Assembly (NCBI RefSeq): GCF_000738435.1
Contig: NZ_CP003984.1
Span: forward strand, 1,984,001 to 2,048,000
Source: Planktomarina temperata RCA23
GTDB lineage: Bacteria; Pseudomonadota; Alphaproteobacteria; Rhodobacterales; Rhodobacteraceae
Reading direction: 5' to 3'
Length of the DNA stretch: 64,000 nucleotides
Shown: positions 1-50,865 of the stretch, in pieces
How the letters are laid out: the number at the start of each line of letters is the position of its first letter
Position numbering within the stretch: position 1 is the stretch's first letter
Translations under genes and position numbers: made by a program
The notes under the pieces: generated by a model
Told to the model about the DNA's origin: nothing
What the model saw: only the letters and a program-made list of their open reading frames with translations
The model's database searches: none

Positions 1-1156
1 CCCGCTTGCCGCCTTTAACTTTCGCAATGCCACGGCCGAGGGCCACGCGAATGCCAGCAGCCTGCACAGCCTCCATCAAGGCCCCGCCCCCTTCGGGCCG
101 TGCATCGACGATCAGCGGCACCTCAAGGCCTGCCTCTAACAGGCAAAGCGCAGTTCGATAAGCGTCATCATTGTTGGTGACAATCACCGTGCGATCTCCC
201 GGCGACACCGCGAAATTTACAACATAGTCGCGCACAGCAGAGGCCAGCATGACGCCGGGAATATCATTGCCCGCAAAAGAGAGCGGCCGTTCGATAGCGC
301 CTGTGGCGGTGACAATCTGTTTGCAGCGCACCCGCCACAACCGGTGGCGCGGCCGCCCGTCCCCGGGTGTGTGATCGGCGATGCGCTCATAGGCCAAAGC
401 ATATCCGTGGTCATAAACCCCAGAGCCTTGGGTGCGATTGCGGATCACAACATTGTCGCAAGCGGCCAGCTCTGCCAAAGTTTGCGCCACCCAATCTTCC
501 GCCGCCAGACCATCAATGGTCACCCCATCCACCGGCGCGCGTCCGCCCCAATGCGCGGTTTGCTCGACCAGCAAAACCCGAACACCGGTTGCAGCCGCCG
601 AACGCGCCGCTTGCAGCCCGGCAATTCCGCCGCCCACCACCATCACCTCGCAATGATGATAGTAATGCTCATAGCTGTCCTGATCACGCGCTTTAGGCGC
701 TTTGCCCAGACCTGCGGAATGACGAATGATCGGCTCATAAATATGTTTCCAAAAGGAGCGCGGGTGAATGAACATCTTGTAATAAAAGCCAGCCGGCAGG
801 AAACGCGACAGCTTCGAATTGATTGCACCCACGTCAAATTCCAACGAGGGAAAATGATTTTGTGACGCGGCTGTCAAACCTGAAAATGTCTCAGTGGTTG
901 TGGCGCGCGCATTGGGTTCAAATCCGCTTTCAACGCCCAGGTTGATCAAGGCATTGGGCTCTTCGCCACCTGACGCCAAAACGCCGCGCGGACGGTGATA
1001 TTTGAACGATCGGCCCATCAGCATTTGATCATTGGCCAAAAGAGAGGCCGCCAAAGTATCGCCCTCAAAGCCGGACATAACCTTGCCATTGAAGGTGAAG
1101 GAAAGCGCTTTGGCGCGGTTGATTAACCGGCCATGGCTGGCAAGACGGGTGCTCAT
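1..1156 (-). CDS. soxA: Sarcosine oxidase alpha subunit, N-terminal part (runs off left edge)
   Basis: Alpha subunit of heterotetrameric sarcosine oxidase, which oxidises sarcosine to glycine and passes the methyl group to tetrahydrofolate as 5,10-methylene-THF. About 385 codons are visible, starting at an ATG at 1156 (MSTRLASHGRLINRAKAL); the rest, including the GcvT-like folate domain, lies beyond base 1. The visible part has the opening segment with FEGDTLAASLLAND and SFKYHRPRG, as in known alpha subunits, then a dinucleotide-binding glycine motif (VVGGGIAGLQAARS) and TGAIERPLSFAGND of the NAD/FAD module. It lies downstream of soxB and soxD on the same strand, with only 67 bp after soxD, so the three are probably one operon. 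The reading frame is open to the window edge, so no damage is indicated. soxG would be expected outside the window. Confidence 0.93.
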   Translation of the reverse strand, partial: MSTRLASHGRLINRAKALSFTFNGKVMSGFEGDTLAASLLANDQMLMGRSFKYHRPRGVLASGGEEPNALINLGVESGFEPNARATTTETFSGLTAASQNHFPSLEFDVGAINSKLSRFLPAGFYYKMFIHPRSFWKHIYEPIIRHSAGLGKAPKARDQDSYEHYYHHCEVMVVGGGIAGLQAARSAAATGVRVLLVEQTAHWGGRAPVDGVTIDGLAAEDWVAQTLAELAACDNVVIRNRTQGSGVYDHGYALAYERIADHTPGDGRPRHRLWRVRCKQIVTATGAIERPLSFAGNDIPGVMLASAVRDYVVNFAVSPGDRTVIVTNNDDAYRTALCLLEAGLEVPLIVDARPEGGGALMEAVQAAGIRVALGRGIAKVKGGKR

Positions 1157-37256: not shown

Positions 37257-38102
37257 TTATCGCCCATAGGGGTTGGGCGGCGCGGGGGTGAAGCCGGTCA
37301 GCGTTTTGGGCGCATAGATCTCAATCACCAGCGGATGGCATTGCGCCGTGTCGCTGGAATGTTCTGCGCCGCAGTCGCCGCCCGGGCAGGCAGAGAGGCC
37401 GAGGGTGATATCAATCTGCGCCTCCAGCTCAAGAAAATCGCCCGGGCGCACGGGGCTGGCCTTCATGAAATATTGATGCGTGTCGCGGGTAAACCCCGTG
37501 AGCATGAAGACATTGAGCACATCATGCACATGCCGCTCCGCCTCTTCCGGCGGCAGATCAAAGTGCTCGGCCACAGCGCGCGTCAGATTGGAATGGCAGC
37601 AATAGTGATAATCTGAGCCGCTGAGCAGCCGGCCCGTATAGGGATCACAGCGGGTGCCAATCACATCATGCACCGAGCCGCCATCGGCGTCATAGCCATA
37701 CCAGTCCAGCGTGTCACAGGTGATATGCGCCAAGGGCCGCATGAAGGGAAAGCTCGACCAGAGGCTGTCACCCGTGCCGACATGGGTGCCGTGCAGAGCG
37801 CGTGTTTTGCCGCTGTAGAATCGCTCGGCGATGTTGTGGCTGTTCCAAATATTCAAATCCCCCACCTGCGGCCCCTCCACAGATACAATCCGCGCGAAAT
37901 GCCCGGCTGGCACGTCAATGCAGGCGGCCGAGCGGGGCGGTACAGAAAGGCGTTGCAGCAATTCTGCGCCCTCGCGCCGCGCGGCTGAGGCCGCCAGATC
38001 GAGCTGCGGCAGGGTCTCGGTGGGATAGCACACAACCACCGGACGCGCCCGCCGCGCCTGCGCATCTGTGGGTTCTGGGTGCGTGGGATGTTGATGTTTC
38101 AT
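37257..38102 (-). CDS. DUF1989 (urea carboxylase-associated) family protein
   Basis: A 281-aa protein of DUF1989, often encoded beside urea carboxylase or amine-catabolic genes and of unproven biochemical role. It has the signature stretches GHFARIVSVEGPQVGDLNIW and TRALHGTHVGTGDSLWSSFP, then VIGTRCDPYTGRLLSGSDYH with conserved Cys, and NVFMLTGFTRDTHQYFMKAS. CPGGDCGAEHSSDTAQCHPL near the end supplies further Cys/His residues that could bind a metal. It is divergent from the diaminopropionate-ammonia-lyase-like operon across 118 bp, which suggests shared control. Upstream residues 1-30 are low-complexity and may not all be needed. Confidence 0.83.
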   Translation of the reverse strand: MKHQHPTHPEPTDAQARRARPVVVCYPTETLPQLDLAASAARREGAELLQRLSVPPRSAACIDVPAGHFARIVSVEGPQVGDLNIWNSHNIAERFYSGKTRALHGTHVGTGDSLWSSFPFMRPLAHITCDTLDWYGYDADGGSVHDVIGTRCDPYTGRLLSGSDYHYCCHSNLTRAVAEHFDLPPEEAERHVHDVLNVFMLTGFTRDTHQYFMKASPVRPGDFLELEAQIDITLGLSACPGGDCGAEHSSDTAQCHPLVIEIYAPKTLTGFTPAPPNPYGR

Positions 38103-38220
38103 GCGGCCTCTCTATGTCGGTAGGCGCATGTTAATGGCGCGCGGTGAAATTGACAATTCCGCGCTGTGACAGGTCGCATATGGGCTTGCTCTTACGGGCG
38201 CGATGGGCTCCATTTGCGCC

Positions 38221-39267
38221 ATGGATATATTGCAAAACCCCCACCGCTCCACGGGCTTGACCGTCGACATCCTGCGCGACATCCCCGCCCCCTCGACCGA
38301 TGCGGCCTCAGTGCAAGCCCTTCTGGCCCGTTGTCCCGACGCCGCCGAAACGGACATGCTACAAGCGCCCAGCATGGCGCAAGATCTCAAGATCGCGCGG
38401 CTCAGCGTGAAAGATGAGCGCGGCCGCATGGGCCTGGGCAGTTTCAAAGCACTTGGCGCGGCCTATGTCATCGCCCATAGCGCCATCGTCAAAGGCGAAG
38501 CACAGAGCGCGAAAACCTATGTCACCGCCAGCGCTGGAAATCACGGGCTCAGCGTGGCGGCTGGCGCAAACGCCTTTGGCGCCGCCTCCGTGATCTTTCT
38601 GAGCCAGAGCGTGCCCGAAGCCTTTGCCGAACGCTTGATCGCTCAAGGCGCAACAGTTGAGCGCGCCGGCGAAACCTATGAGCAGAGCATGAGCGCGGCG
38701 CAAGCGGCGGCCGAAGCCAATGGCTGGACCCTGCTGTCGGACAGCTCTTGGCCAGGCTATAGCGATTTGAGCCATCGTTTGATGGAGGGCTATACCGTCT
38801 TTATGGCCGAAGCCGAGCGGCAAATTTCTGCGCCGACCCATATCTTCTTGCAAGCTGGCGTTGGCGGGTTGGCCGGAGCTGCAGCCGCGATGGCCCGCAA
38901 ACTTTGGGGCGATGCACCGGTGATCGTGGTGGTTGAACCACAGCACGCCCCCGCGCTGCACGGCTGCATTCAAGCCGGTGATTTCGTCGCTGCCAAAGGT
39001 CCAGGAAGCGCCATGGGGCGGCTGGATTGCCTGGAGGCCTCTTTGATTGCCCTGAAGGGGCTGGCCAAGGATGCCGATGTTTTTGCGCTCATCAGCGAAG
39101 AGGAAGGCCAAGCCGGCGCCGATTATGCCGCAGCCCATCAGATGGAGAGCACAGCCTCCGGGGCCGCGGGTCTGGCGGCGCTCTTGGCCTCACCGGCCCA
39201 TCGTGCAGCGCTCAAGCTTGACGCAAACTCCCATGTGCTTGTCATACTTTCAGAAGGTCCAGAATAA
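38221..39267 (+). CDS. PLP-dependent lyase, diaminopropionate ammonia-lyase-like
   Basis: Fold-type II PLP enzyme (348 aa from ATG 38221). The Schiff-base Lys is in RMGLGSFKALGAAYVIAHS. YVTASAGNHGLSVAAGANAF binds the substrate carboxylate, LSDSSWPGYSDLSHRLMEGY is shared with diaminopropionate ammonia-lyases, and IFLQAGVGGLAGAAAAMARK is the phosphate-binding glycine loop. The family eliminates ammonia from 2,3-diaminopropionate, D- or L-serine or related beta-substituted amino acids to give pyruvate. Another ATG six codons upstream is possible, as neither has a clear ribosome-binding site. Its stop shares a base with the M24 gene start (TAATG). It is the first gene of a tight three-gene operon. 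Confidence 0.8.
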   Translation: MDILQNPHRSTGLTVDILRDIPAPSTDAASVQALLARCPDAAETDMLQAPSMAQDLKIARLSVKDERGRMGLGSFKALGAAYVIAHSAIVKGEAQSAKTYVTASAGNHGLSVAAGANAFGAASVIFLSQSVPEAFAERLIAQGATVERAGETYEQSMSAAQAAAEANGWTLLSDSSWPGYSDLSHRLMEGYTVFMAEAERQISAPTHIFLQAGVGGLAGAAAAMARKLWGDAPVIVVVEPQHAPALHGCIQAGDFVAAKGPGSAMGRLDCLEASLIALKGLAKDADVFALISEEEGQAGADYAAAHQMESTASGAAGLAALLASPAHRAALKLDANSHVLVILSEGPE

Positions 39268-40406
39268 TGCCCCAAGGTTTTGAAACCACAGAATTCAAAG
39301 CGCGCCTGACAGGCGCACAAAGCCGCATGAATGCGGCGGATCTCGACGCTATTTTACTGACCACAGAGCCAGATATTCGCTATTTCACCGGCTATCTCAC
39401 AAGATTTTGGGAAAGCCCGTGCCGGCCTTGGTTCTTGGTCCTGCCCCGCTCTGGCGATCCCATTGCTGTCATCCCCTCAATTGGCGCCGCGCTCATGGCC
39501 CGCACATGGATCACAGATATTCGCACATGGCGTGCGCCAGATCTCGAAGATGATGGCATTAGCCTTTTGGCCGAGACACTGCGGGATTTAGGCCCTCGTA
39601 TTGGCACACCCAGCGGGTTGCAGTCACATCTGCGCATGCCGCTGGGCGATTTTGCCCGGCTCAATGCCGCTCTGCCCCAGCCGATTGGCGCGGATGCTGA
39701 CATTCTGCGCAGCCTGCGCTTGGTGAAATCTGAGGCTGAGATTGAGAAGATCAAAACCGCGTGCCAGATTGCCACCCGCGCCTTTGACCGCGTGCCGGAG
39801 ATTGCCCGCATCGGCCAGCCTTTGGCACCGGTGTTTCGAGATTTTCAGCGCCTCTGTCTGGATGAAGGCGCCGATTGGGTGCCCTATCTTGCCGGTGCTG
39901 CGGCGCCCGGCGGCTATGGCGATGTCATCTCTCCAGCGGACGACCGCCCGCTCGAGGCGGGAGATGTCTTGATGCTGGACACAGGCTTGGTGCATGATGG
40001 CTATTTTTGCGATTTCGATCGCAACTTTTCCGTGGGCAGCCCATCGCCGGATGTTGCCGCCGGACACAGCCGTCTGATTGAAGCCACATATGCCGCATTT
40101 GAAGCCGCACGACCTGGTGCGACCGCGGCGGAGCTGTTTCACGTTATGGATAAGATTGTCACCGGCGGCGCCGGCGGCTCCGAGGCGGGCCGCTATGGCC
40201 ATGGGCTGGGCATGAACCTCACCGAATGGCCAAGCCTGATCCCAACCGATCACACGCCGCTGGTAGAGGGCATGGTCCTCACCTTGGAGCCCGGCATCGA
40301 ATTGGCGCAAGGTCGCGCCTTGGTTCATGAGGAAAATATCGTCATTCGCGAGAATGGAGCCGAGTGGCTGAGCCAACCTTATGGCGCCGAAATGATTAGG
40401 GTTTAA
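39267..40406 (+). CDS. M24-family metallohydrolase (Xaa-Pro aminopeptidase/creatinase-like)
   Basis: Pita-bread-fold hydrolase (379 aa). The N-terminal creatinase-like domain has EPDIRYFTGYLTRFWESPCR. The C-terminal catalytic domain keeps all five metal ligands: the Asp residues in LMLDTGLVHDGYFCDFDRN, the His in YGHGLGMNLTEWP, the Glu in LTLEPGIEL and the Glu in VHEENIVIRENG. M24 members cleave Xaa-Pro peptides, creatine or other C-N bonds (for example the ectoine ring in DoeA). This protein lacks DoeA-specific N-terminal sequence, so ectoine is not claimed. It lies between the PLP lyase and the racemase-like gene with essentially no spacing, implying a joint pathway. Confidence 0.83.
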   Translation: MPQGFETTEFKARLTGAQSRMNAADLDAILLTTEPDIRYFTGYLTRFWESPCRPWFLVLPRSGDPIAVIPSIGAALMARTWITDIRTWRAPDLEDDGISLLAETLRDLGPRIGTPSGLQSHLRMPLGDFARLNAALPQPIGADADILRSLRLVKSEAEIEKIKTACQIATRAFDRVPEIARIGQPLAPVFRDFQRLCLDEGADWVPYLAGAAAPGGYGDVISPADDRPLEAGDVLMLDTGLVHDGYFCDFDRNFSVGSPSPDVAAGHSRLIEATYAAFEAARPGATAAELFHVMDKIVTGGAGGSEAGRYGHGLGMNLTEWPSLIPTDHTPLVEGMVLTLEPGIELAQGRALVHEENIVIRENGAEWLSQPYGAEMIRV

Positions 40407-40407
40407 C

Positions 40408-41154
40408 ATGAGCTTACTGCCATATGACATTGTTTCAATTGAACCAACTCGAATTGGGCTTGTGGTTTTGCAATCAGATGAAACCATCGAGCGCGATATG
40501 ATGCAGATGCGCGGCACCGCAGATCTTTTCTTTAGCCGCGTGCCCAGCGGGCAAGAGGTCACAGCTGAAACGCTGCAATCTATGGCGGGGCATATTGAGG
40601 CTTCAGCGGCGCTCTTTCCGCAGACCCTGCGCTTGAACGCCGTGGGCTATGGCTGCACGTCCGGCACGGCTCAAATTGGCGTGCAGGAGATTGAGCGGCT
40701 GGTGAAATCTGGCACAAAAACCCAGGCGGTCAGCCAGCCCGTCTCCGCATTGGTGGCAGCTTGCCAGCATCTCAAGCTCAAACGTATTGCGTTTTTGTCC
40801 CCCTACCTCGAGGAGGTCAGCGCCAATCTGCGGACGGTGTTGCAGCAGAACGGCGTTGAAACCCCAGTGTTTGGCACTTTCGGCGAGGCCGAAGAAACAA
40901 AAGTTGTGCGCATTTCTGGCGCATCGGTTCAAAGCGCGGCCCGTCATCTGCTCGCAGAGGGCGGGCTTGACGGCATTTTCCTCAGCTGCACCAACCTGCG
41001 CACCATGGATTTGATTGCCCCCATGGAAGCTGAGCTGGGCCTGCCTGTGCTGTCCAGCAACCTTGTGCTCGCGTGGCATCTCGCGCAGCTGTCTGGTGAT
41101 CCAAAGGCGTTGCAAGGTCCTGGCCGGCTCTTTGCCGCCCAGGCCGCCGAGTGA
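40408..41154 (+). CDS. Asp/Glu racemase-superfamily protein (maleate isomerase/AMDase-like)
   Basis: Cofactor-independent two-cysteine enzyme (248 aa). One catalytic Cys is in NAVGYGCTSGTAQIG and the other in GIFLSCTNLRTMDLI, the arrangement of maleate cis-trans isomerase and arylmalonate decarboxylase. EutA-type proteins in ectoine clusters also look like this. It starts one base after the M24 stop, so it is translated with the two genes before it. No N-terminal signal is present. It probably racemises or isomerises an intermediate made or used by the PLP lyase (inference). Confidence 0.82.
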   Translation: MSLLPYDIVSIEPTRIGLVVLQSDETIERDMMQMRGTADLFFSRVPSGQEVTAETLQSMAGHIEASAALFPQTLRLNAVGYGCTSGTAQIGVQEIERLVKSGTKTQAVSQPVSALVAACQHLKLKRIAFLSPYLEEVSANLRTVLQQNGVETPVFGTFGEAEETKVVRISGASVQSAARHLLAEGGLDGIFLSCTNLRTMDLIAPMEAELGLPVLSSNLVLAWHLAQLSGDPKALQGPGRLFAAQAAE

Positions 41155-41171: not shown

Positions 41172-41978
41172 TTAAACCCGCTGCAGAAAGTCAAAAACGG
41201 GCTGGGTAAAGGCCTCTGGCGCTTCGAGCAGCCCCAAATGCTTGAACTTCGGTATAATTTGGCACTCTGCCCCTGCGATTTCAGCGGCGATGTCCCGGCT
41301 CATCTGCGGCGTTGAACCCACATCTTCCGCGCAAGTCATCACCAAACTTGGCACGTTTAAGGCTGGAACTGGGCGAATTAACTCTCTGACCCCATGGGCC
41401 AAAACCCAGGCGGACTGCCCATAGCTCGTGCGATCCGCCTGCAGGCGCCAAGCCGCGACCTGCTGCGGGATTTCTGCATTCGAGGCCAGAAATTCCGGCG
41501 TGAACCACCGCTCCAATGCGGCCTGCAGCGTCGCCTCAGCGCCCCGATCCAGCGCCTTGCCTGCCCGCGTCTCCACCTCTTGCTGCATCTGCGCACCACG
41601 GTCATGGGGCGAATTCAAAATAACCAATGACCGCACCAAATGCGGGTGGTCCATGGCGACACGTCGATTGATCATCCCGCCAATGGAAAATCCAACCAGA
41701 TGTGCAGGGCCCAATGCGGTTTCCTCCAGCAGTCGGGCAATTTGATCGGCGAAGACCGACAGGTTGAGCGGGCGCTCTGCCGGAGCACTCTGCCCATGGC
41801 CATAAAGGTCATAACTCAAAACGCGATACCGGCCGCAGAGCGCTGGCAAATGGGCCTGCCACAGCGATGAGCTCAGCCCCAATCCATGGATCAGCACCAA
41901 TGGCGGCCCATCTTCGGGCCCGTCGAGCCTATAGGCCGTGTCATCGGCTGCTCTAAACACCAGCGGGATTGTCCACAT
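41172..41978 (-). CDS. Alpha/beta hydrolase (TgnD/PcaD-like)
   Basis: Alpha/beta-fold hydrolase (268 aa). It has the oxyanion motif LVLIHGLGLSSSLW, the nucleophile elbow AHLVGFSIGGMINRR (Ser), the acid MTCAEDVGSTPQM and the His in PKFKHLGLLEAPE. Relatives include 3-oxoadipate enol-lactonase and the N-methylformamido-methylene-succinate hydrolase of trigonelline breakdown. An open frame extends 27 codons upstream inside the DUF1185 gene. ATG 41978 gives a normal N-terminus (MWTIPLVFRAADD) and overlaps that gene by 26 bases. It is the last gene of the transporter-monooxygenase operon and would cleave the amide or ester product of ring opening. Confidence 0.85.
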   Translation of the reverse strand: MWTIPLVFRAADDTAYRLDGPEDGPPLVLIHGLGLSSSLWQAHLPALCGRYRVLSYDLYGHGQSAPAERPLNLSVFADQIARLLEETALGPAHLVGFSIGGMINRRVAMDHPHLVRSLVILNSPHDRGAQMQQEVETRAGKALDRGAEATLQAALERWFTPEFLASNAEIPQQVAAWRLQADRTSYGQSAWVLAHGVRELIRPVPALNVPSLVMTCAEDVGSTPQMSRDIAAEIAGAECQIIPKFKHLGLLEAPEAFTQPVFDFLQRV

Positions 41979-42549
41979 CGCGGCCCATATCGCGCAGATC
42001 ATCATAGCGGTTGCCAATCCGGTGCAAAGGATGGCCACCAATGGAGGCGCCAAGCGCAATCAAAATCTCATCCTCGGCAGGCGCATCCGGCACGGTGGTG
42101 TGAATGGTTTGGTAATGGCTTCGCATACCGCCATCATCCTTATGCATCAACGGGATCATCAAGGATGTGCCCGCGCCGCCGCGCGTATTGGTAAAAGCGA
42201 GATAGGACTTGGCATTGACCGCCTCACGAAACTGATTGCCGAAATGCAGCGTATGCGTCATCGCTTGCGCGTGCTCGACCTCGCCGCCCATGCCGACAAT
42301 ACTGGCTTTGCCGCAGCCCTCAATCTTATCCCCACAAATCTCAAGCAACAGATCGGTCAAGAGCTTACCCAGCACCGGCCCATGCTCTTGAATTTCTGGC
42401 CGGAGATTCTCAACCCACCCGCGACCAAACCAAGGGTTTTTGACAATCGCCATGGCGCTCACCAATTTGGTTGGCACCGGCACAGCCTTGCCCCCCTCCT
42501 CATAGGTGGTTTGCACCAGCGTCAACGTGCGGCGAATTTCAATACTCAT
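41953..42549 (-). CDS. DUF1185 / amino acid synthesis family protein
   Basis: A 198-aa protein of the PF06684 amino-acid-synthesis (DUF1185) family, whose biochemical activity is not known to me. It has MSIEIRRTLTLVQTTYEEGG at the start, the Pro-Trp segment AIVKNPWFGRGWVENLRP, EHAQAMTHTLHFGNQFREAV and IALGASIGGHPLHRIGNRYD. It lies between the flavin monooxygenase (11 bp upstream) and the hydrolase (overlapping). Such proteins recur beside luciferase-like monooxygenases in proteobacterial catabolic clusters. A role on an unstable ring-opened intermediate is possible but not shown. Confidence 0.82.
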   Translation of the reverse strand: MSIEIRRTLTLVQTTYEEGGKAVPVPTKLVSAMAIVKNPWFGRGWVENLRPEIQEHGPVLGKLLTDLLLEICGDKIEGCGKASIVGMGGEVEHAQAMTHTLHFGNQFREAVNAKSYLAFTNTRGGAGTSLMIPLMHKDDGGMRSHYQTIHTTVPDAPAEDEILIALGASIGGHPLHRIGNRYDDLRDMGRDVDNPAGV

Positions 42550-42560
42550 GGCGACATCCT

Positions 42561-43595
42561 TCAGGTAAATTCTGGCATAACATGGTCAATGAAACTTTGG
42601 AGGGAGCGTTTCTGCTCTGCCATCCCCAATCCCATTGACGCATAATAAATAAAAGCATCAACGCCCAAAGCCTCATAACGGCGCAGTTTTGCAATCACCT
42701 GGTCGGGCGATCCAAACATCAGATTTTCCTCAAGCATTTCTGGATCTACACGGACATTGCCCTCTAAGTCCTCCGCAGAGACCTCATCGGGAAAGCCATT
42801 GTGCACCGCTCCAGTTTTGGTCATCAGATTGCCAAATCTTCCCAAAACGCTGCGAATGGCGTCCATGGCTGCGGCGCGATCTTCTTTTGTCTCGTAAACC
42901 GCCGTGTGGCGCATCATGGCGAATGTGCCATCCCAGCCATTGCCCGCTGTCTCAATGGCCTCATCGAGCTGCGCTTTATATTTTTCCGCCTCCGCAAAGG
43001 GCATGGAAAACGGCCAAGACATAATGTTGCAGTGATTGGCCACCGCATAGTCAAAGGTGATGGGCGAGCGGGCCGCAACCCACATTGGCACCTCGCCTTG
43101 CAGCGGCTTGGGGCAGGATGTGGCCGCAGGGAACTGCCAATATGTTCCGTCATGTGTCACATCCCCCTGCCAAAGCTTGCGCACCAAAGGCAGCATTTCT
43201 TGCATATAGCGCCAGCTGTCACTTTGGGCCAATCCGGGCTTCATACGGTCAAACTCACGTTGATAGGCCCCCGAACCCAGGCCCAAATCCAACCGCCCGT
43301 CGGATAGGAGATCAACCATGGCCGCTTCACCCGCCAGATTGATCGGATGCCAATAGGCCGCATTGGCCACGCCGCATCCCAAGCGGATGTTTTCGGTGTG
43401 ATCCGCCCACCACGTCATAATTTGAAACGGATTGGGCGCAATAGTCATTTCCAGCGCGTGATGCTCCGCCGCCCAAGCAATTTCAAAGCCAGCTCGGTCA
43501 GCCATTTGAACCATTTCGAGGACATGATCGCGCACCGCGCGCATATCTGTCTGCGCATCCATACGTTCTAAATTTATCGCAATGTGAAACTTCAT
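42561..43595 (-). CDS. LLM-class flavin-dependent monooxygenase
   Basis: Luciferase-like (beta/alpha)8 monooxygenase (344 aa) that uses reduced FMN supplied by a separate reductase. It has ERMDAQTDMRAVRDHVLEMV, IAWAAEHHALEMTIAPNPFQ (the EHH motif of luciferase-alpha relatives), NIRLGCGVANAAYWHPINLA and LSDGRLDLGLGSGAYQREF. GSPDQVIAKLRRYEALGVD lies near the C-terminus. The start is ATG 43595 (MKFHIAIN); a 37-codon upstream extension lies in the aldehyde dehydrogenase region. It sits 4 bp downstream of the aldehyde dehydrogenase. Its probable partner is the flavin reductase at 50377. Ring-cleaving oxygenation of an N-heterocycle is the leading guess. Confidence 0.88.
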   Translation of the reverse strand: MKFHIAINLERMDAQTDMRAVRDHVLEMVQMADRAGFEIAWAAEHHALEMTIAPNPFQIMTWWADHTENIRLGCGVANAAYWHPINLAGEAAMVDLLSDGRLDLGLGSGAYQREFDRMKPGLAQSDSWRYMQEMLPLVRKLWQGDVTHDGTYWQFPAATSCPKPLQGEVPMWVAARSPITFDYAVANHCNIMSWPFSMPFAEAEKYKAQLDEAIETAGNGWDGTFAMMRHTAVYETKEDRAAAMDAIRSVLGRFGNLMTKTGAVHNGFPDEVSAEDLEGNVRVDPEMLEENLMFGSPDQVIAKLRRYEALGVDAFIYYASMGLGMAEQKRSLQSFIDHVMPEFT

Positions 43596-43599
43596 CTGA

Positions 43600-45075
43600 T
43601 CACCTTGGTTGAAAGGGGTTGGCGATAGGATCATCCGACAGGTTGACCCAGATGGTTTTGGCCCGGGTGTAATCATACATGGCTTGCAGCCCAGCCTCCC
43701 GCCCATGGCCGGAGGTTTTCACGCCTCCAAATTCAGCAATCGGCGAAATCATTCGGTAGGTATTGACCCAAACCATTCCGGATTTCAATGCTTTGGCCAA
43801 ACGCAGTTGCCGGGCGCCATCGCGGGTAAACAGCCCCGCGGCCAGCCCATGCTTGGTGTCATTGGCCAGGGCCAAAACCTCCGATTCCGTGCGAAACCGC
43901 TGGACGGCCAGCACCGGGCCAAAAAGCTCCGTGTCGACAATGGTCATATCTTGGCGCGGGCATTCGATGATGGTGGGTTCAAAGAACAAACCCGGCCCCG
44001 CAAGGCGGCGCCCGCCGCAAAGAAGCGTGCCCCCCTCCTCAATGGCCAGGGCCACTTGCCGCTCGATATGTTCAATTTGCCCAAGCGTGCATAGGGGGCC
44101 CATTTCCGTCGCATCGGCCTGAGGATCGCCAATGACAATGCCGCGGGCGATGTTGAGCATACGCGCCAAAAAGTCATCCGCTATGTCGTCATGCAAATAG
44201 AGCCGTGAGCCCGCCACGCAGGATTGACCGCTGGCCGCGAATATCCCAGCAATCGCACCATTCACAGCGCTCTCGATATTGGCATCGTCGAAAACAATAA
44301 TCGGGGATTTGCCGCCCAACTCCAAACTCACTTCTGCAAAATTTTCCGCAGAATTCTTGATCACCTGTGCCGCAGCCGCCGGCCCGCCCGTGAACGCGAC
44401 GCGCGCCACTTTCGGATGACGGGTTAATTCCCGACCGCAAACCGCGCCATGCCCGGTAATGATATTGACCACACCGGGCGGGATACCAGCCTCAGCCACC
44501 AACTTCCCAAAGGCCAAGAGGGGCGCACTGGCATGTTCGGAGGCCTTTAGCACCATCGTATTGCCTGCGGCCAGCGCCGGGCCCAGCTTGGTCGCGGTGA
44601 GGAACATTTGGCTGTTCCAAGGGATCACCGCCGCGATGACCCCCAAGGGCTCTCGGTTCGTAAACACAAACATTTCAGGCTTATCAATCGGCAATGTATC
44701 ACCGCTGATCTTATCGGCGGCACCCGCAAAAAAATGCAAATATTCGGCGATATAGGTGGCCTGCCAAGCGGTTTCCTTGAACATTTTACCGGTGTCGCGG
44801 GTCTCGATGCGCCCGATCTCTTCGGAATGGGCCGCCAAGAGATCTGCCAGACGGGCCAAATGCTTGCCGCGCTGGGTGGGGGTCATAGCCCCCCAGGGAC
44901 CGTCCAAGGCCGCCGCTGCGGCTTCCACAGCCCGGTTCACATCCGCATAGGTGGCCTCTGGGATGCGGGCCCAAGCCAGGCCGGTGGAGGGATCAATGCA
45001 GTCAAAGGCCGCCCCATCCGAGGCCGCGCACCACTGGCCATCAATCAGCATCTGCAATGTTTCAAGTTCAGCCAT
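43600..45075 (-). CDS. Aldehyde dehydrogenase (catabolic operon)
   Basis: Complete NAD(P)-dependent aldehyde dehydrogenase (491 aa). It has IAAVIPWNSQMFLTATKLGP (Rossmann entry), the catalytic Glu in VSLELGGKSPIIVFDDANIE, the nucleophilic Cys in FAASGQSCVAGSRLYLHDD, and EFGGVKTSGHGREAGLQAMY at the C-terminus. It follows the permease genes on the same strand and precedes the flavin monooxygenase by 4 bp. In the trigonelline-type scheme it would oxidise the semialdehyde (or its cyclic hemiacetal) formed by oxygenolytic ring opening, as TgnC does. No sign of damage. Confidence 0.9.
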   Translation of the reverse strand: MAELETLQMLIDGQWCAASDGAAFDCIDPSTGLAWARIPEATYADVNRAVEAAAAALDGPWGAMTPTQRGKHLARLADLLAAHSEEIGRIETRDTGKMFKETAWQATYIAEYLHFFAGAADKISGDTLPIDKPEMFVFTNREPLGVIAAVIPWNSQMFLTATKLGPALAAGNTMVLKASEHASAPLLAFGKLVAEAGIPPGVVNIITGHGAVCGRELTRHPKVARVAFTGGPAAAAQVIKNSAENFAEVSLELGGKSPIIVFDDANIESAVNGAIAGIFAASGQSCVAGSRLYLHDDIADDFLARMLNIARGIVIGDPQADATEMGPLCTLGQIEHIERQVALAIEEGGTLLCGGRRLAGPGLFFEPTIIECPRQDMTIVDTELFGPVLAVQRFRTESEVLALANDTKHGLAAGLFTRDGARQLRLAKALKSGMVWVNTYRMISPIAEFGGVKTSGHGREAGLQAMYDYTRAKTIWVNLSDDPIANPFQPR

Positions 45076-45184
45076 ATGCCCCTCCCCTGCTTTTTCCCTG
45101 CAAGACTAGCAGAGTTTCATAGCAAAAAAGGAAAATTGCGTCGCTTGTCCTCACGAAAACCGACGCCAGGTGATAAATTTTGCC

Positions 45185-46426
45185 TTAGGAGGGGCTGACA
45201 CCGCGCAGACGCTCCGATCTGCGGCGCAGCAATTCCACCGTAGTCAAAAGCAAGATCGAGATGATGACCAAGATCGTTGCGACAGCCAAGATAGTGGGCG
45301 AAATCTGCTCACGAATGCCGCTGAACATCTGCCGCGGGATCGTACGCTGGCGCACATCCGCCAGTTGCAACACCGCCACGACCTCGTCAAAGCTCGTGAT
45401 AAAGGCAAAAAGCGCCCCGGAAATGACCCCAGGCAGAATCAATGGCATTTGCACCTTAAAGAAGGTACGGATCGGCCCCGCCCCCATATTCGCGCTGGCC
45501 CGGGTCAGGGATTGATCAAAGCCCGACAAGGTGGCCGTCACCGTGATGATCACAAATGGTGTGCCCAAAGCCGCATGAGCCAGAATGATGCCAAGATAGG
45601 TCTTCGCCAAGCCGACACTCGAGAAAAAGAAAAACAGACCCGAGGCGGTGATCACCAAGGGCACAATCATCGGTGAAATCAACAAGGCCATGATTGGGCG
45701 GCGCCAGGGCATATCGCTGGAGGACAGGCCAACTGCGGCCAGAGTGCCCAGAGCTGTCGAGATCATCGTGGCCCAGAAGCCAATGAAAAAGGAGTTGCGA
45801 ATGGAGCGAATCCATTGCGCATTCGACCACATATCACTCCACCAACCGACAACCGCCTCCGGATCCACCATGCCATTTTGCAATATGTCGATATACCAGC
45901 GCATCGAATAGGCCAGTGGATCAAAGCGCAGCATTCCGGGGGTGAAACTGAAATAGGGCTCTTGGTTAAAGCTCAAAGGGATCAGCACGAAAATCGGCAT
46001 AATCAAAAAGACAAAGATCATGCCGCAAATCATGCGAAAACTGTAGAACCAGAGCACTTGCCGCGCCGTGGCATAGGGCGGCAGGTTCAATCGATAGCGG
46101 CCCGAAGCCAGCCAACAGGTCATGCCACCGGCAATATAGCCCACAATGGCCATCAACACGCCGTAGGCAAAGCCAACCAATCCAGTCCCAACAGCGAAGA
46201 AGGCGATCACACCCAGCCATGCGGCCAGGCGTCCACGATCCCCAAGCCGGGTCACCGCAAAAGAAAAGGCCGCAAAGAGCGCCGCGCCAATGGCCAAAAA
46301 GGGCAGCATGAGCCCTGTATCGCCCTGGGCAGTCATCAAACCAGCCAAGCCGCCAAAGCCTGCCAAAATTCCCACAGTGAACCCCAGAGGAGGTTTGGGT
46401 GGAATATAACGATAGTCACCTGTCAT
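45185..46426 (-). CDS. ABC transporter permease, PotC-type with extra N-terminal membrane region
   Basis: Inner-membrane subunit (413 aa) of a polyamine/opine-type ABC importer. The PotC-like core occupies about residues 145-405. It includes the ATPase-contact loop with EAA-type motif (LTRASANMGAGPIRTFFKVQ) followed by MPLILPGVISGALFAFITSF. Ahead of it are about 140 residues with four extra hydrophobic segments (for example MLPFLAIGAALFAAFSFAV), absent from E. coli PotC (about 264 aa). It starts 5 bp after the other permease. In-frame stop and motifs are normal. Confidence 0.85.
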   Translation of the reverse strand: MTGDYRYIPPKPPLGFTVGILAGFGGLAGLMTAQGDTGLMLPFLAIGAALFAAFSFAVTRLGDRGRLAAWLGVIAFFAVGTGLVGFAYGVLMAIVGYIAGGMTCWLASGRYRLNLPPYATARQVLWFYSFRMICGMIFVFLIMPIFVLIPLSFNQEPYFSFTPGMLRFDPLAYSMRWYIDILQNGMVDPEAVVGWWSDMWSNAQWIRSIRNSFFIGFWATMISTALGTLAAVGLSSSDMPWRRPIMALLISPMIVPLVITASGLFFFFSSVGLAKTYLGIILAHAALGTPFVIITVTATLSGFDQSLTRASANMGAGPIRTFFKVQMPLILPGVISGALFAFITSFDEVVAVLQLADVRQRTIPRQMFSGIREQISPTILAVATILVIISILLLTTVELLRRRSERLRGVSPS

Positions 46427-46431
46427 TGGTC

Positions 46432-47682
46432 TTATCCCAGTTTCATATTGTCGATGCCCACCACGCGGTCATAGACCCAGAAGAGGAACATCACGAACAC
46501 CAGCATCACCAGCCCCAGGGCCGCCGCAAGGTTCCAGTTCAGTGATTTTCGCATGTGGAAATCGATGATGTTTGACACCATCTGCCCATCTTGCCCGCCA
46601 ACCAGCGCCGGGGTGATGTAATAGCCAATGGCCAAAATGAAGACCAACAAAGCCCCTGCCCCAATGCCCGGCACGGATTGCGGGAAATAGACGCGCCAAA
46701 AGGCCGTCCAATCCGTTGCGCCCATCGACTTGGCCGCCCGCACATAGCTGGGTGGAATGGTTTTCATGACAGAAAACAACGGCAAGATCATGAAGGGCAG
46801 CAAAATATGGGTCATGGCAATCAATGTGCCGGTTTTGTTGTAGATCAAACTGAAGCGATCCTCATCCGTCGCCAGACCAAAGACCACAAAGAGGTCATTC
46901 ATCACCCCTTGAGCTTGAAGCATGGCGATCCAAGCGGTGGTGCGCACCAGCAGCGACGTCCAAAATGGCAAAAGCACTAAGATCAACAGCAAGTTCGAGG
47001 TGCGCAGCGGCAGGGAGGCCATCAGAAAGGCAATGGGATAGCCGAGGATCAAGCAAAATATCGTGACCAAAAAGGAAATTTCCATTGTCCGCGCAAAGAG
47101 CTGCACGTGAATGCGGCGTTCTTCACTTTGCTGTATGATGGACCCGTCGGCCAGCATTTTGCGGTCCAAAGCCGCCGCGATATAGGCGGGCGTAAAGATC
47201 CGGCTGGCGGTTTTCATCGCATGCCAGGTTTCAATATCGGCCCAATCTTTGTCTTTCTTGATCAAAGCCTCCATATAGGGCGGCTTCATTTTCTTGGCGT
47301 TGCGGGCGGTCTTGGTAAAAAGGCTCCGGGTGCCGCTCAGCTCGCGGTTGACCCGCGTGGCCACTTTCCCGATGGTTTTTTCTTTTTTTGCCACCACCAA
47401 ATCGGCCACCAAGGCGGCGGCCATCTGTTCGGTCGGCGCCGTGCTGCCATCCCAATCGGCCATGGCCTCGGAGGTCGCAGGCATCAGCGTCGCGAACCGC
47501 GCATCATAGACTGATTGGCGCAAGAAATCCAAAATAGGGTAGACAAAAACCACAATGATAAACGCCAAAAGCGGAAGAGCCAGACCAAAGGCCCGCGCTC
47601 GGCTTCGAAACATCGATTGCGCCAATTTCCGCTTTAGGGGGGTACCATCTACCGCAAGAAGCGGTTCAGAGGAGTCCGTCAT
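46432..47682 (-). CDS. ABC transporter permease, PotB-type with long first periplasmic loop
   Basis: Second inner-membrane subunit (416 aa). After a first membrane helix (LALPLLAFIIVVFVYPILDF) comes a hydrophilic insert of roughly 150 residues (about 60-200), rich in charged residues, where E. coli PotB has a short loop. The remaining helices are typical and include the EAA-type loop VRAAKSMGATDWTAFWRVYF. The long loop may contact the binding protein. It is separated from the binding-protein gene by 62 bp containing a stem-loop, and is followed by the other permease after 5 bp. Confidence 0.85.
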   Translation of the reverse strand: MTDSSEPLLAVDGTPLKRKLAQSMFRSRARAFGLALPLLAFIIVVFVYPILDFLRQSVYDARFATLMPATSEAMADWDGSTAPTEQMAAALVADLVVAKKEKTIGKVATRVNRELSGTRSLFTKTARNAKKMKPPYMEALIKKDKDWADIETWHAMKTASRIFTPAYIAAALDRKMLADGSIIQQSEERRIHVQLFARTMEISFLVTIFCLILGYPIAFLMASLPLRTSNLLLILVLLPFWTSLLVRTTAWIAMLQAQGVMNDLFVVFGLATDEDRFSLIYNKTGTLIAMTHILLPFMILPLFSVMKTIPPSYVRAAKSMGATDWTAFWRVYFPQSVPGIGAGALLVFILAIGYYITPALVGGQDGQMVSNIIDFHMRKSLNWNLAAALGLVMLVFVMFLFWVYDRVVGIDNMKLG

Positions 47683-47712
47683 AGGTTCAAGATCCCAAAA
47701 TAAAAAGAGAAT

Positions 47713-47732
47713 GGGGCGCCCAAGAGCGCCCC
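47713..47732 (-). terminator. Stem-loop between binding protein and permease genes
   Basis: On the minus strand GGGGCGC-TCTTGG-GCGCCCC forms a 7-bp GC stem with a 6-base loop, followed by ATTCTCTTTTTATTTTG. It sits just after the stop of the substrate-binding protein and before the permease pair. In ABC operons such hairpins act as partial terminators or 3'-end stabilisers, giving more binding protein than permease. The T run is imperfect, so read-through is likely. Confidence 0.65.
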
Positions 47733-47744
47733 ACCAAAATCAAA

Positions 47745-48836
47745 TTAGTTGATCAACCAAGCGTTGAAACGCTCGTTGAGCTCATCTGCATTGTCAGCCC
47801 AGAATTCAAAGTCATTCGGAATAGCTGTTGCAAAGTTCGCAGGCGCCGTTGGCATTTGCGGACCCATATCCAGATCTGGATTGCTATGGTATGTGCTCAC
47901 CAGCGGTGCCGATGATTTACGTGCAGGACCATAGGAGATGTAGGACGCTTGTGCTGCCAATTGCGCAGTCTCAGTGGAGAACTTCAAGAAGTCCATCGCA
48001 AGATCTGCATTTGGAGCACCTTTCACAATCGCCCACATGTCGAAGTCAAACACCTGCGCGTCCCAGACAATCTCAAACGGCTTGTTTTCGGAGGCAACAG
48101 CATTGAAAATACGGCCGTTATAGGCTGTGGTCATCGCAACTTCGCCATCTGCCAGCAATTGTGGTGGCTGTGCGCCCGCTTCCCACCAAACAACATCATT
48201 CTTGATGGTGTCGAGTTTTGCAAATGCACGGTCTACGCCTGCATCTGTGCCCAAAACTTCATAGACGTCTTCAGGAGCCACACCATCCGCAGCCAATGCC
48301 ATTTCAAGCGTTGCTTTTGGAGATTTGCGCAGGCCACGTTTGCCTGGGAATTTAGATGTGTCGAAGAAATCTGCGATTGTTTTCGGGCCGTTTGGCATGG
48401 CAGATTTGTCATAGGCGAAAATAGTGGACCAAACGATGTTTGCCACAGCACAATCGGTGAAAGAGCCATCGACAAAGTCTTCCTCAGCAGGCGTTCCGTC
48501 CGCGCCCGCTGGCAAAGAGGCCGGGTCAATTTCCATGAACAGGCCTTCATCACAGCCACGCACCGCATCGGACTTTTCAACATCGATGATGTCCCAGGTC
48601 ACATTGCCCGCTTCAACCTGTGCTTTCACCTCTGCAATACCGCCAGAATAGTCTTCTGATACAACGGTGTTACCGGTCGCCGCAGTCCAAGGCTTATGAT
48701 AGGCTTCGATTTGTGATTTGGTGTAAGCGCCACCCCAAGATACCGCTGTGATACTGCCTGTGTGGCTACCGGCAAACGCGCTGGTGGCGCCAAGCGCCAG
48801 AGCGGTTCCGGTCAAAAGTAGAGTTGTCTTTTTCAT
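47745..48836 (-). CDS. ABC transporter substrate-binding protein, PotD/PotF-like
   Basis: Periplasmic binding protein (363 aa). It opens with a signal peptide (KKTTLLLTGTALALGATSAF, cleaved after AFA). The mature start is ITAVSWGGAYTKSQIEAYHK, typical of the polyamine/opine SBP class. TWDIIDVEKSDAVRGCDEGL, VWSTIFAYDKSAMPNGPKTI and ALLADGEVA-type ligand-site segments follow. GGGAG lies 9 bases before ATG 48836 and only 3 before an in-frame ATG at 48842, so 48836 is preferred. Codons are strongly biased, consistent with high expression. The PotD class binds cations such as putrescine or quaternary amines; this ligand is not determined. Confidence 0.87.
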   Translation of the reverse strand: MKKTTLLLTGTALALGATSAFAGSHTGSITAVSWGGAYTKSQIEAYHKPWTAATGNTVVSEDYSGGIAEVKAQVEAGNVTWDIIDVEKSDAVRGCDEGLFMEIDPASLPAGADGTPAEEDFVDGSFTDCAVANIVWSTIFAYDKSAMPNGPKTIADFFDTSKFPGKRGLRKSPKATLEMALAADGVAPEDVYEVLGTDAGVDRAFAKLDTIKNDVVWWEAGAQPPQLLADGEVAMTTAYNGRIFNAVASENKPFEIVWDAQVFDFDMWAIVKGAPNADLAMDFLKFSTETAQLAAQASYISYGPARKSSAPLVSTYHSNPDLDMGPQMPTAPANFATAIPNDFEFWADNADELNERFNAWLIN

Positions 48837-48912
48837 AATCATAGTCTCCCAGTTAAAACTTAGTTATTGGCCCCGATCTACGCCGGGGGTCGTTGTCCGA
48901 CTTGGAGGCTGC

Positions 48913-50010
48913 TTAAGCGTCCAAAGCGCGGCAATCTTCGGGCATCCAGCCAATCTCAATTTGCGTGCCTGGTTTCAGACGCACTTGATCTGGCGCGTTG
49001 CGCGTTTTGATAATGAACTCATCATTGCCCGCCACGCGCAACCGCGTGCGGAAAATATCGCCCATATAGATGAACTCAAGAACCTCTGCTTGAAGCGTGT
49101 GCACACCTTTTTGCAAACGATCCTTGTTATATTCGACTCGCTCCGGGCGAATGGACACACGCGTGCGCTCACCCGGCTTGGTTACATTAACCGGTTTACA
49201 ATCGATCAAATCGCCACTGTCGAGCTCAACCAAAGCCACACCGTTTTTGATCTCTTTGACCACACCTTCAAGGGTGTTATTCTCGCCGATAAACTGCGCC
49301 ACAAAGCTATTTTCGGGGCTTTCATAAAGCTCGTCGGGCGGGGCGATTTGCTGGATGACCCCATCGTTGAACACTGCAACCCGATCCGACATTGTCAGGG
49401 CTTCAGTTTGGTCGTGGGTCACATAGACCACTGTGATCCCAAGTTTATGGGCCAAATCTGTGATCTCAAACTGCATCTTTTCCCGCAGTTGTTTGTCGAG
49501 GGCTCCCAAAGGCTCATCCATCAACACCAGTTCCGGCTCAAAGACCAAAGCCCGCGCCAATGCGATGCGCTGCTGCTGCCCACCTGACAGCTGGGCCGGA
49601 CGGCGCGTTATAAAATCTCCCATCTCAACCATATCCAGCGCGCGCTTCGCCTTAGCCTCACGCTCAGATTTTCCGAACTTGCGCACCTCCAAGGGGAACG
49701 ACAGGTTCTCCCCGACAGTCATATGCGGGAACAAGGCATAGTTTTGGAACACCATACCAATGCCACGTTTGTGAGGTGGGATATTGTTGATGGGCTTTCC
49801 ATCAAGCAAAATTTCTCCGTGCGTGGCGGTCTCAAATCCGGCCAACATCATCAGGCAGGTGGTTTTGCCGGAACCCGATGGGCCCAACATGGTTAAGAAC
49901 TCACCCCGTGGAATAGCTAAATTCAGGTCTTTGACCACTAAAACTTCGCCGTCGTAACTCTTTTGCACGCGTTGAAATTCAACAAATGCTTTCGTCTGTG
50001 CCTCAGCCAA
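48913..50010 (-). CDS. ABC transporter ATPase, PotA-like
   Basis: ATP-binding subunit (365 aa) of the importer. It shows Walker A ([20 protein letters not shown]), the Q-loop ([18 protein letters not shown]), the ABC signature ([15 protein letters not shown]) and Walker B ([19 protein letters not shown]), plus the switch His in [13 protein letters not shown]-terminal TOBE regulatory domain follows (about residues 290-360). It is the first gene of the long minus-strand operon (ATPase, binding protein, permeases, aldehyde dehydrogenase, monooxygenase, DUF1185, hydrolase). The promoter must lie in 50011-50376, shared with the divergent flavin reductase. Confidence 0.93.
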
Positions 50011-50376
50011 ACCTTGATCCCCGTGTTTTCCAATCTCGGTGGATTGGTATTATTGTGTCGGTGATTAACAAACAAACATTAGCGTGACGCAACCGGAAAC
50101 TTGAAAATATCGGCAATTTGACCCAATTTTTTTCGCGGCACCCGCTTCGGGCTGCATTACCTTGCAAAAAAACCTCGGAATGATCCGTTTTTTTTGAAGA
50201 AACTTGTCAAGGCAACTTTACGGGTCAGGTGCAAACAGAATCAGCCACCGCAAAAGTCGCCCCTGTCACTGGCACCATTCAGATTACGAAAGAAAAGACA
50301 GATCACGCCATTGAATTGTGCCGCAAAGAAGATATGTCTGGTTCGAGAAATTTTCGTGACAGGGACAGGAAAAACC
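50011..50376. promoter_or_regulatory. Divergent control region of transporter operon and flavin reductase
   Basis: This 366-bp stretch has no gene (an open frame upstream of the reductase, 50194-50376, has no family resemblance and is rejected). It is visibly AT-rich, with T tracts at 50128-50134 and 50189-50196. It separates the ABC-ATPase start from the flavin reductase start, so promoters for both transcripts and any operator of a substrate-responsive regulator should lie here. No regulator gene is adjacent, and I could not pin a specific operator. Confidence 0.55.
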
Positions 50377-50865
50377 ATGGTTGACCGCAGCTTATTCATT
50401 GAGGCGATGCGCCATGTGGCGCAATCTGTCACGGTCGTCACCACTCAGGGCGCTGACGGATGCACGGGCGCAACCGTCAGCGCTTTTTCCTCTCTCTCGG
50501 CCGACCCGCCCTCCGTTTTGGTCTGTTTGAGATCCGACAGCCGGATCGGTCTGGCGGTGGGGCGCAATCGGGTATTTTGCGTTAATGTTCTGCCTGAAGG
50601 GGCAAGCGCGCTGGCTGGCCGCTTTGCGGGTCGATTTGACGCCGAAGAGCCCGATCGTTTTGGCGCCATCGACTGCCGCCACTCCCGCAGCGGGCCCGTG
50701 CTCAGCGGCGCCACAGCCTTCGAATGTACCGTGGATCAAATCATCACCCATGGCAGCCATGACATCTGTATTGGAAATGTGACAGCCATCACCAATGCCG
50801 CCACCCCCCCCTTGGCCTATATGGACGGCAGCTTTCACATTGTGCGCCCCGAAGGGGCCTCTTAG
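50377..50865 (+). CDS. Flavin reductase (HpaC/TgnB-like), partner of LLM monooxygenase
   Basis: Flavin:NAD(P)H reductase (162 aa) of the flavin-reductase-like FMN-binding barrel family. It has FIEAMRHVAQSVTVVTTQGA, GATVSAFSSLSADPPSVLVC (flavin site) and IGLAVGRNRVFCVNVLPEGA, and near the end the His of ITHGSHDICIGNVTAITNAA. The length fits stand-alone reductase components. ATG 50377 follows GGGACAGGA. It is transcribed divergently from the transporter operon. The only oxygenase in the vicinity needing external reduced flavin is the LLM protein at 42561, so the two are taken as one two-component monooxygenase (inference). Confidence 0.88.
   Translation: MVDRSLFIEAMRHVAQSVTVVTTQGADGCTGATVSAFSSLSADPPSVLVCLRSDSRIGLAVGRNRVFCVNVLPEGASALAGRFAGRFDAEEPDRFGAIDCRHSRSGPVLSGATAFECTVDQIITHGSHDICIGNVTAITNAATPPLAYMDGSFHIVRPEGAS

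Follow-up and report, generated by a model that had tools for sequence, protein, structure and literature searches.

What compound does a nine-gene locus of Planktomarina temperata RCA23 take up, and how might that compound be broken down? The locus occupies positions 41172..50865 of the stretch of DNA analysed here, a window of 64,000 nucleotides that covers positions 1984001-2048000 of the 3,288,122-base genome (G000). It joins an importer of the PotABCD type to an aldehyde dehydrogenase (ALDH), a flavin-dependent luciferase-like monooxygenase (LLM), a DUF1185 protein, an alpha/beta hydrolase and a flavin reductase. An earlier note on this DNA had read it as an uptake and ring-opening system for trigonelline, homarine or a similar cation, with enzymes like those of the Tgn pathway of trigonelline degradation. 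That interpretation is partly supported. We infer with moderate confidence, as to the substrate and to every reaction, that the cluster serves to import an N-methylated pyridinium carboxylate, with homarine (N-methylpicolinate) as the most likely one, and to degrade it in a Tgn-like manner. The genes are as follows.

50377..50865, plus strand: flavin reductase, divergent from the importer, proposed supplier of FMNH2 (Flavin_Reduct, 109 bits)
48913..50010, minus strand: importer ATPase, PotA-type, with a TOBE_2 domain and a TTG start (Pfam ABC_tran, 128.5 bits; TOBE_2, 58.5 bits)
47745..48842, minus strand: periplasmic binding protein of the PotD-like branch that binds gamma-aminobutyrate (GABA) or opines (SBP_bac_8, 175.3 bits)
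46432..47682, minus strand: importer permease, PotB-type (NCBIfam PotB is the top match at 152.6 bits, under its cut-off of 348)
45185..46426, minus strand: importer permease, PotC-type (NCBIfam PotC is the top match at 131.8 bits, under its cut-off of 326)
43600..45075, minus strand: ALDH, TgnC-like (Aldedh, 514.4 bits)
42561..43595, minus strand: LLM, proposed ring-opening oxygenase (Bac_luciferase, 190.1 bits)
41953..42549, minus strand: DUF1185 / AA_synth protein, TgnF-like (PF06684, 194.7 bits, cut-off 27)
41172..41960, minus strand: alpha/beta hydrolase, proposed deformylase/enamine hydrolase and TgnD analogue (Abhydrolase_1, 92.9 bits)

The genes, order and strands described in the earlier note held up, with family matches for all nine: eight on the minus strand and the divergent plus-strand flavin reductase. 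Three of them (LLM, flavin reductase and hydrolase) were over-extended by the longest open reading frames. The LLM has 344 amino acids (aa) and starts at 43595. For the flavin reductase the most likely start is the ATG at 50377 (162 aa), and for the hydrolase it is the GTG at 41960, giving 262 aa and an 8-base overlap with the DUF1185 gene. Because the eight minus-strand genes are spaced by only -8 to 109 bases, the 109-base gap lying at the permease/ALDH border, it is plausible that they form one operon. A terminator-like stem-loop of 11 pairs (47735-47710) lies between the binding-protein and permease genes; terminator-like sites in the region did not exceed shuffled sequences (12 against 13.6), and a promoter scan of the region gave no more than the shuffle level. 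Rfam and tRNA searches of the window returned 0 matches each, and an intergenic alignment of four Planktomarina loci yielded no operator.

The monooxygenase sets this locus apart from known trigonelline enzymes. For a tree of the LLM only, 145 rows were collected, those of at least 320 aa were kept and 8 database proteins were added, giving 153 rows, 139 of them different. The tree divided into a TgnA clade of 22 rows, in which all Acinetobacter and Sinorhizobium (S.) meliloti proteins fall, and a second side that has 131 rows and includes the window LLM, both sides with a support of 100 in the Shimodaira-Hasegawa-like approximate likelihood ratio test (SH-aLRT). A clade of 89 rows (SH-aLRT 99) holds the window LLM and, together with one more row (95), makes up what we call type H; the rest of the 131-row side consists of 31 rows of type C, a group made by sorting and not one clade, and 10 deep rows. 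H and C are labels coined in this analysis. Since 51 of the 136 inner branches of this quick tree are open, its finer branching order is not used. The window LLM is about 37% identical to the Acinetobacter-type enzyme, and types H and C differ from the TgnA clade at many fixed positions, such as A6/F, N8/H, A43/G, S108/R, Y318/W and S320/D, each fixed in 90/90 H rows and in 22/22 TgnA-clade rows. Judged by sequence, the type-H relatives form a conserved clade separate from TgnA. A direct TgnA orthologue was rejected on this evidence, and the placement with TgnA for which the earlier note had suggested a tree did not emerge. Use of alkanesulfonate, which the same note had named as a refuting possibility, was rejected as well, the model for FMNH2-dependent alkanesulfonate monooxygenase giving 39.4 bits against a cut-off of 518.2.

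The predicted LLM model (mean predicted local distance difference test score, pLDDT, 91.4) has the bacterial luciferase fold. The nearest named proteins come from Rhodobacteraceae bacterium IMCC1909 (99% identity) and uncultured Planktomarina (95% and 87%), and within its own genome the protein finds only itself (E <= 1e-60). We considered and dropped the idea that S108/R113 in types H and C, against R108/F-or-Y113 in the TgnA clade, marks a moved site for the substrate carboxylate. The arginine equivalent to this position in luciferases is presumably a flavin-phosphate ligand, so that the contrast shows merely that the clades differ.

We also asked how the LLM types are distributed among genomes. 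Among 296 genomes of the family, 78 have an LLM match (E <= 1e-55) and six have more than one: types H, C and TgnA occur together in G596, H with C in both G593 and G341, C with the TgnA type in G348, and a deep type with the TgnA type in G506; the second copy of G555 was left unplaced. At class level, 288 genomes yielded 22 with a match at E <= 1e-60, of which two carry two copies, in the 45-50% range. Since several types coexist in one genome, they are not simple replacements everywhere, and the presence of H, C and TgnA together in G596 argues for different substrates. In the genus of the window the pattern is closer to one of alternatives, with a single LLM match in each of 13 of the 20 genomes (six H, six C, one TgnA type).

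Trigonelline degradation by TgnA-TgnF of Acinetobacter baylyi ADP1 was reportedly described by Perchat et al. in 2018, a work cited in PMC7913881 and PMC8269262. We located tgn-like clusters by tblastn against plasmids (324 records matched, 60 listed); the loci compared with the window come from Acinetobacter, S. meliloti and Leisingera and do not include ADP1. Among the matches listed, such clusters were found on pSymA of S. meliloti (strain R14, L018), in Acinetobacter (L019) and in Leisingera (L020). The LLM of the A. baumannii cluster (L019) is 93-94% identical to Acinetobacter proteins (P0121-P0123) that NCBI names flavin-dependent trigonelline monooxygenase. The pSymA cluster contains genes for a GntR regulator, DUF1185 protein, hydrolase, reductase, LLM, ALDH, NIPSNAP protein, importer and succinate-semialdehyde dehydrogenase, with nif and noe genes adjoining, and we take this region to be the trc trigonelline region. 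According to an excerpt of PMC4207669, wild-type S. meliloti (a strain other than R14) grows on trigonelline and a strain lacking pSymA does not; this dependence on pSymA links a pyridinium carboxylate with the tgn-like clade.

Against these clusters the window enzymes show graded similarity. The ALDH is 54-55% identical over its full length to its tgn-like counterparts in S. meliloti, A. baumannii and Leisingera, and 68-75% identical to the six type-H and type-C ALDHs compared. The DUF1185 protein, the sole match of its family in the window genome, is 54-61% identical to the tgn-like proteins, and the flavin reductase 32-38%. The hydrolase belongs to the same superfamily as the tgn-like hydrolases at only 25-28% identity; its nearest solved chain is a 3-oxoadipate enol-lactonase, and its nearest library and solved matches are of the PcaD type. 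Succinate-semialdehyde dehydrogenase (TgnE) is absent among the window cluster genes, and a 65% homologue of the S. meliloti enzyme lies far off in the genome (G000:C1:129683). The earlier note had counted the DUF1185 protein and ABC-type uptake as departures from Tgn, and neither is one. TgnF of A. baylyi is itself homologous to DUF1185-family proteins, as stated in a portion of PMC7913881, and the pSymA cluster carries, beside its tgn-like genes, an importer homologous to that of the window (binding protein 36%, ATPase 44%, permeases 33-39% identity). In sum, the window and an ADP1-type Tgn system have in common an LLM oxygenase with a flavin reductase, an ALDH, an alpha/beta hydrolase and a DUF1185 protein, whereas the window differs in its separate LLM clade, its distant hydrolase, its short (162-aa) divergent reductase, the missing succinate-semialdehyde dehydrogenase gene and the presence of a PotABCD-type importer. 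With the pSymA cluster it shares the five enzyme types and the homologous importer, whereas the TgnA-clade LLM and the GntR regulator, NIPSNAP and succinate-semialdehyde dehydrogenase genes are features of pSymA. The likeness to the Tgn set claimed in the earlier note is thus supported as homology, and the two enzyme sets appear from their sequences to be related yet distinct.

What the importer carries is suggested by its binding protein. The closest solved chain by sequence is 8jv1 (286.5 bits, 3e-84), an entry titled 'Structure of the SAR11 PotD in complex with GABA', followed by 4i1d, MotA and GABA sensors, so that the nearest solved relatives bind GABA or opines. The polyamine-binding VcPotD1 (7xjm) is far weaker (E 5.9e-4). 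The window importer therefore shares four-gene architecture and domain families with the PotABCD spermidine/putrescine importer but differs in a binding protein that groups with GABA- and opine-binding proteins and not with polyamine-binding PotD/PotF. Polyamine use, the other refuting possibility raised in the earlier note, was rejected on this grouping, and with a SAR11 PotD in complex with GABA as closest solved relative a zwitterion appears the likelier cargo. An AlphaFold model of the binding protein, made from 7 sequences, served to rank solved relatives; because the model is poor (mean pLDDT 55.5), this ranking is secondary to the sequence result.

Relatives of the operon were collected by scanning named genome contigs. 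The scan matched 103 stretches with 90 relatives, and the best 80 of the 90 were classed as 70 type H, 5 type C and 5 odd; since many contigs are short, counts among these 80 loci are lower bounds. The usual type-H order is a LysR gene divergent from [flavin reductase]-ALDH-LLM-DUF1185-hydrolase-thiamine diphosphate (ThDP) enzyme, followed in some by NIPSNAP. LysR was found in 46/80 loci and the ThDP enzyme, of the 2-oxo-acid class, in 41/80, and reductases 41-57% identical to that of the window lie 3-62 bases upstream of ALDH in 25/70 type-H loci. Carriers include Planktomarina, Roseovarius, Yoonia, Litoreibacter, SAR116, Granulosicoccaceae, marine Rhizobiaceae and Acidimicrobiales. The window matches the order ALDH-LLM-DUF1185-hydrolase, and since the enzyme order is kept in relatives, this gene order is not due to chance. 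The window version has the importer where the usual type-H operon has LysR and ThDP genes. Four type-H Planktomarina genomes could be read across the border (G000, G002, G004 and G007), and in each of them that importer directly adjoins the enzymes; the contig of G006 stops within the LLM, so that the importer side is not visible. The window ATPase is 86% identical to that of another Planktomarina type-H locus (L046) and 81% identical to that of L063.

Two observations on LLM neighbourhoods may be added. A Rieske oxygenase-like gene stands beside the LLM in L063, L094, L100, L101, L119, L120, L115, L116 and L123, in four of them between ALDH and LLM. In L033 (G033) the LLM relative is broken by in-frame stop codons, with an apparent ThDP gene fragment near, and the operon is apparently decaying.

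Type-C clusters were found in Aminobacter, in a Ruegeria pomeroyi strain, in Parasedimentitalea and, within the window's genus, in 6 of the 13 genomes that have an LLM. Besides the shared enzymes they carry crotonobetainyl-CoA hydratase-like and carnitine-dehydrogenase-like genes (for example L021, L030, L112 and L230), and several also have RidA, BKACE and a mesaconate-type CoA transferase. The R. pomeroyi strain has one LLM in its genome (E <= 1e-40), of type C, with no such BKACE in the stretch read, and L114, classed as C by its layout, has none of the three carnitine-like genes. Homologous importers accompany type-C as well as tgn-like clusters. In one type-H Planktomarina genome (G007, L025) the binding protein is 98% identical to type-C-adjoining ones in two species (L030 and L031), over 283 and 313 residues, and just 46% identical to the window binding protein. 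This common binding protein suggests, by its sequence, that types H and C may handle the same or closely related imported compounds, and that importers may have been swapped between H and C clusters as modules. Window-like binding proteins (at least 60 bits) occur in 6/80 loci, two of them, 31% identical, of type C. Plasmids gave 483 records of relatives, the closest at 55-59% identity among the top 15 listed, in varied settings; of three settings read, one has Rieske, RidA and FMN-glutamate-synthase genes.

In the Tgn reaction course the oxygenase cleaves C5-C6, and a corresponding course can be proposed for the window. The binding protein would capture the zwitterion and the ABC transporter would import it. 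The flavin reductase would give reduced flavin to the LLM, which would add oxygen beside the ring nitrogen and cleave C5-C6 to leave an N-formyl-N-methyl enamide bearing an aldehyde. The ALDH would then convert the aldehyde to the acid, and the hydrolase, perhaps with help from the DUF1185 protein, would release formate and then methylamine. From a 3-carboxylate this sequence would lead to succinate semialdehyde; from a 2-carboxylate it would lead through a 2-imino acid to 2-oxoglutarate, methylamine and formate. Homarine would thus end as 2-oxoglutarate, or as N-methylglutamate if the imine were reduced, and GmaS, Mgs and Mgd, encoded elsewhere in the genome, would handle the methylamine. We infer the role of the DUF1185 protein here, as we do the choice of a SoxBDAG-like operon as Mgd below.

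By this proposed mechanism the ThDP enzyme and the RidA of type-C clusters suit a 2-imino or 2-oxo acid and favour the 2-carboxylate homarine over the 3-carboxylate trigonelline. Of the two ligands put forward in the earlier note, homarine is the better candidate, given these ThDP and RidA genes in relatives, the missing succinate-semialdehyde dehydrogenase, an LLM clade of its own and carriers that are marine; the position of the LLM outside the TgnA clade speaks against trigonelline. ProX-like betaine importers beside 5/80 loci were also counted toward homarine. The compound, which originates from marine phytoplankton, reaches 0.02-2.7 nM in marine particles (corrected value, Heal et al.), against 1-300 pM for trigonelline (Heal et al.). 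R. pomeroyi clears homarine from diatom-derived medium within hours, as an excerpt of PMC12817926 states; a growth comparison in R. pomeroyi was withdrawn by Heal et al. and bears neither way.

In some loci the type-H operon has methylamine or N-methylglutamate-type genes as neighbours. A homarine catabolic pathway of environmental bacteria has been reported by Ferrer-Gonzalez et al. (2026, Nat Microbiol 11:1531; reference 55 of PMC13390433), the operon reportedly being named homABCDER, with five genes and a regulator and a marine distribution. Type H would fit that make-up, although the window is without the type-H LysR. A link to N-methylglutamate dehydrogenase is common to that pathway and to our reading, and Mgd takes part in homarine catabolism according to a report cited in PMC13390433. 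The type-H operon adjoins mgs-type genes in 5/80 loci and mgd-type genes in 2/80 (7/80 in total). All five mgs-type loci (L078, L087, L088, L102 and L122) are titled Roseovarius; there the operon is followed by glutamine-amidotransferase, GXGXG and glutamate-synthase-like genes, after which 3/5 have a type III glutamine-synthetase-like gene. Going by family (L078 and L088), similarity (the others) and context, we assign these sequences as putative mgsABC and gmaS. In L053 and L054, from marine Rhizobiaceae, an AraC-family gene and a SoxBDAG-like operon lie near the type-H operon (families tested on L053), and a SoxBDAG-like operon adjoining an AraC-family gene also occurs in a R. pomeroyi strain and a Roseovarius. 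In R. pomeroyi DSS-3 the AraC-type tmaR adjoins mgdABCD, according to passages of PMC13390433, and by analogy, from the AraC context, we call the SoxBDAG-like operons candidate mgd instead of sarcosine oxidase. The window genome has mgsA (73%), mgsB (71%), mgsC (84%) and gmaS (80% identity, over its cut-off) in one operon, and one SoxA-like gene that is part of a SoxBDAG operon with an AraC gene next to it (SoxB 78% and SoxA 66% identical to L053). Under a chance model of 3.5 Mb genomes with one cluster each, the adjacency to mgs/mgd genes has P ~8e-6 if the 7 loci are independent; we regard it as suggestive. One of the sarcosine-oxidase-alpha-like genes of the genome (G000:C1:1982151-1985147), of which there are four, runs into the left end of the window (1-1147).

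Several results weigh against homarine as the substrate. TgnA-type machinery was judged unlikely to act on homarine for steric reasons (Heal et al.). The mgs/mgd adjacency is clustered among relatives, and at least 2 independent events have a chance probability of P ~0.15. All four SoxA-like genes of the window genome are over the sarcosine-oxidase cut-off, and since the choice among them was made by gene context, the assignment of its mgd is tentative. The usual type-H operon includes LysR and ThDP genes that are missing from the window, none adjoining the cluster, and the top ThDP homologues elsewhere in the genome are just 31% identical. In G012, a type-H Planktomarina with LysR and ThDP genes, the 20 kb of sequence read contain no importer of this kind. 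Finally, the carnitine-like genes of related type-C clusters have no obvious need in homarine breakdown. A speculative type-C route would decarboxylate the ring-opened homarine product to methylamino-crotonate, with carnitine-like steps thereafter.

Those carnitine-like genes also speak for the alternative that survives best, namely that the substrate is another quaternary or N-methyl zwitterion, such as GABA-betaine or a carnitine-like compound, and not a pyridinium carboxylate, with the oxygenase doing other chemistry. The crotonobetainyl-CoA hydratase-like, carnitine-dehydrogenase-like and BKACE genes behind type-C LLMs, the binding protein that one Planktomarina type-H locus has nearly in common with two type-C loci, the GABA ligands of the nearest solved binding proteins and the Rieske genes beside some LLMs would all suit it. 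The combination of DUF1185 protein, LLM, ALDH, hydrolase and reductase is nonetheless that of a pyridinium pathway, and carnitine-like genes of the type-C kind (at least 150 bits) occur in 0/70 type-H loci, many of them on short contigs. We consider this alternative unlikely, if still worth keeping in mind.

Less probable again is a trigonelline pathway in which the LLM is a diverged TgnA performing the same reaction on the 3-carboxylate. The similar enzyme set, DUF1185 protein included, with its ALDH and DUF1185 identities above 50%, speaks for it, as do one JGI protein (P0067) in the window LLM's clade that bears a trigonelline name and the one-LLM-per-genome pattern of the genus, in which the types look like alternatives. 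The separate LLM clade with its many fixed differences, the coexistence of type H with the TgnA type in G596, the low identity of the hydrolase and the lack of a succinate-semialdehyde dehydrogenase gene in the cluster, its homologue being far away, make it a poor prospect. Equally improbable is that a GABA or amino-acid importer merely lies beside an unrelated oxygenase operon, for although the 109-base permease/ALDH gap, the lack of such an importer in most type-H loci and in the G012 stretch, and the breadth of the binding-protein family on plasmids would fit two separate units, the importer stands directly beside the enzymes in four genomes and homologous importers accompany type-C and tgn-like clusters.

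Within the homarine reading, a wider scheme can be offered tentatively, as one we think rather less likely than its opposite. The type-H clade would be a second, marine branch of luciferase-like pyridinium ring-openers, for the 2-carboxylate homarine; the GABA-type PotABCD of Planktomarina would be a dedicated homarine transporter; and type C, with a similar importer and oxygenase, would pass its product through carnitine-like lower steps and end at a compound of the N-methylglycine type. If the homarine reading is true, it provides a concrete importer and oxygenase for homarine in Planktomarina, a pelagic Roseobacter genus (in a part of PMC12661815), and a 2022 paper counted homarine with the compounds for which R. 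pomeroyi has no confirmed transporter (in an excerpt of PMC9723723). A marine oxygenase clade split from TgnA would also allow metagenome genes now named trigonelline or alkanesulfonate monooxygenase to be assigned properly.

Next to the cluster, at 37257-41154 of the window, lies a convergent group of genes that is conserved in Planktomarina relatives. A urea-carboxylase-associated-like protein is encoded on the minus strand, opposite three plus-strand genes for a diaminopropionate-ammonia-lyase-like pyridoxal phosphate enzyme, an M24 peptidase and an EutA-like protein. Every NCBIfam score is under the curated cut-off, and the group resembles parts of ectoine degradation.

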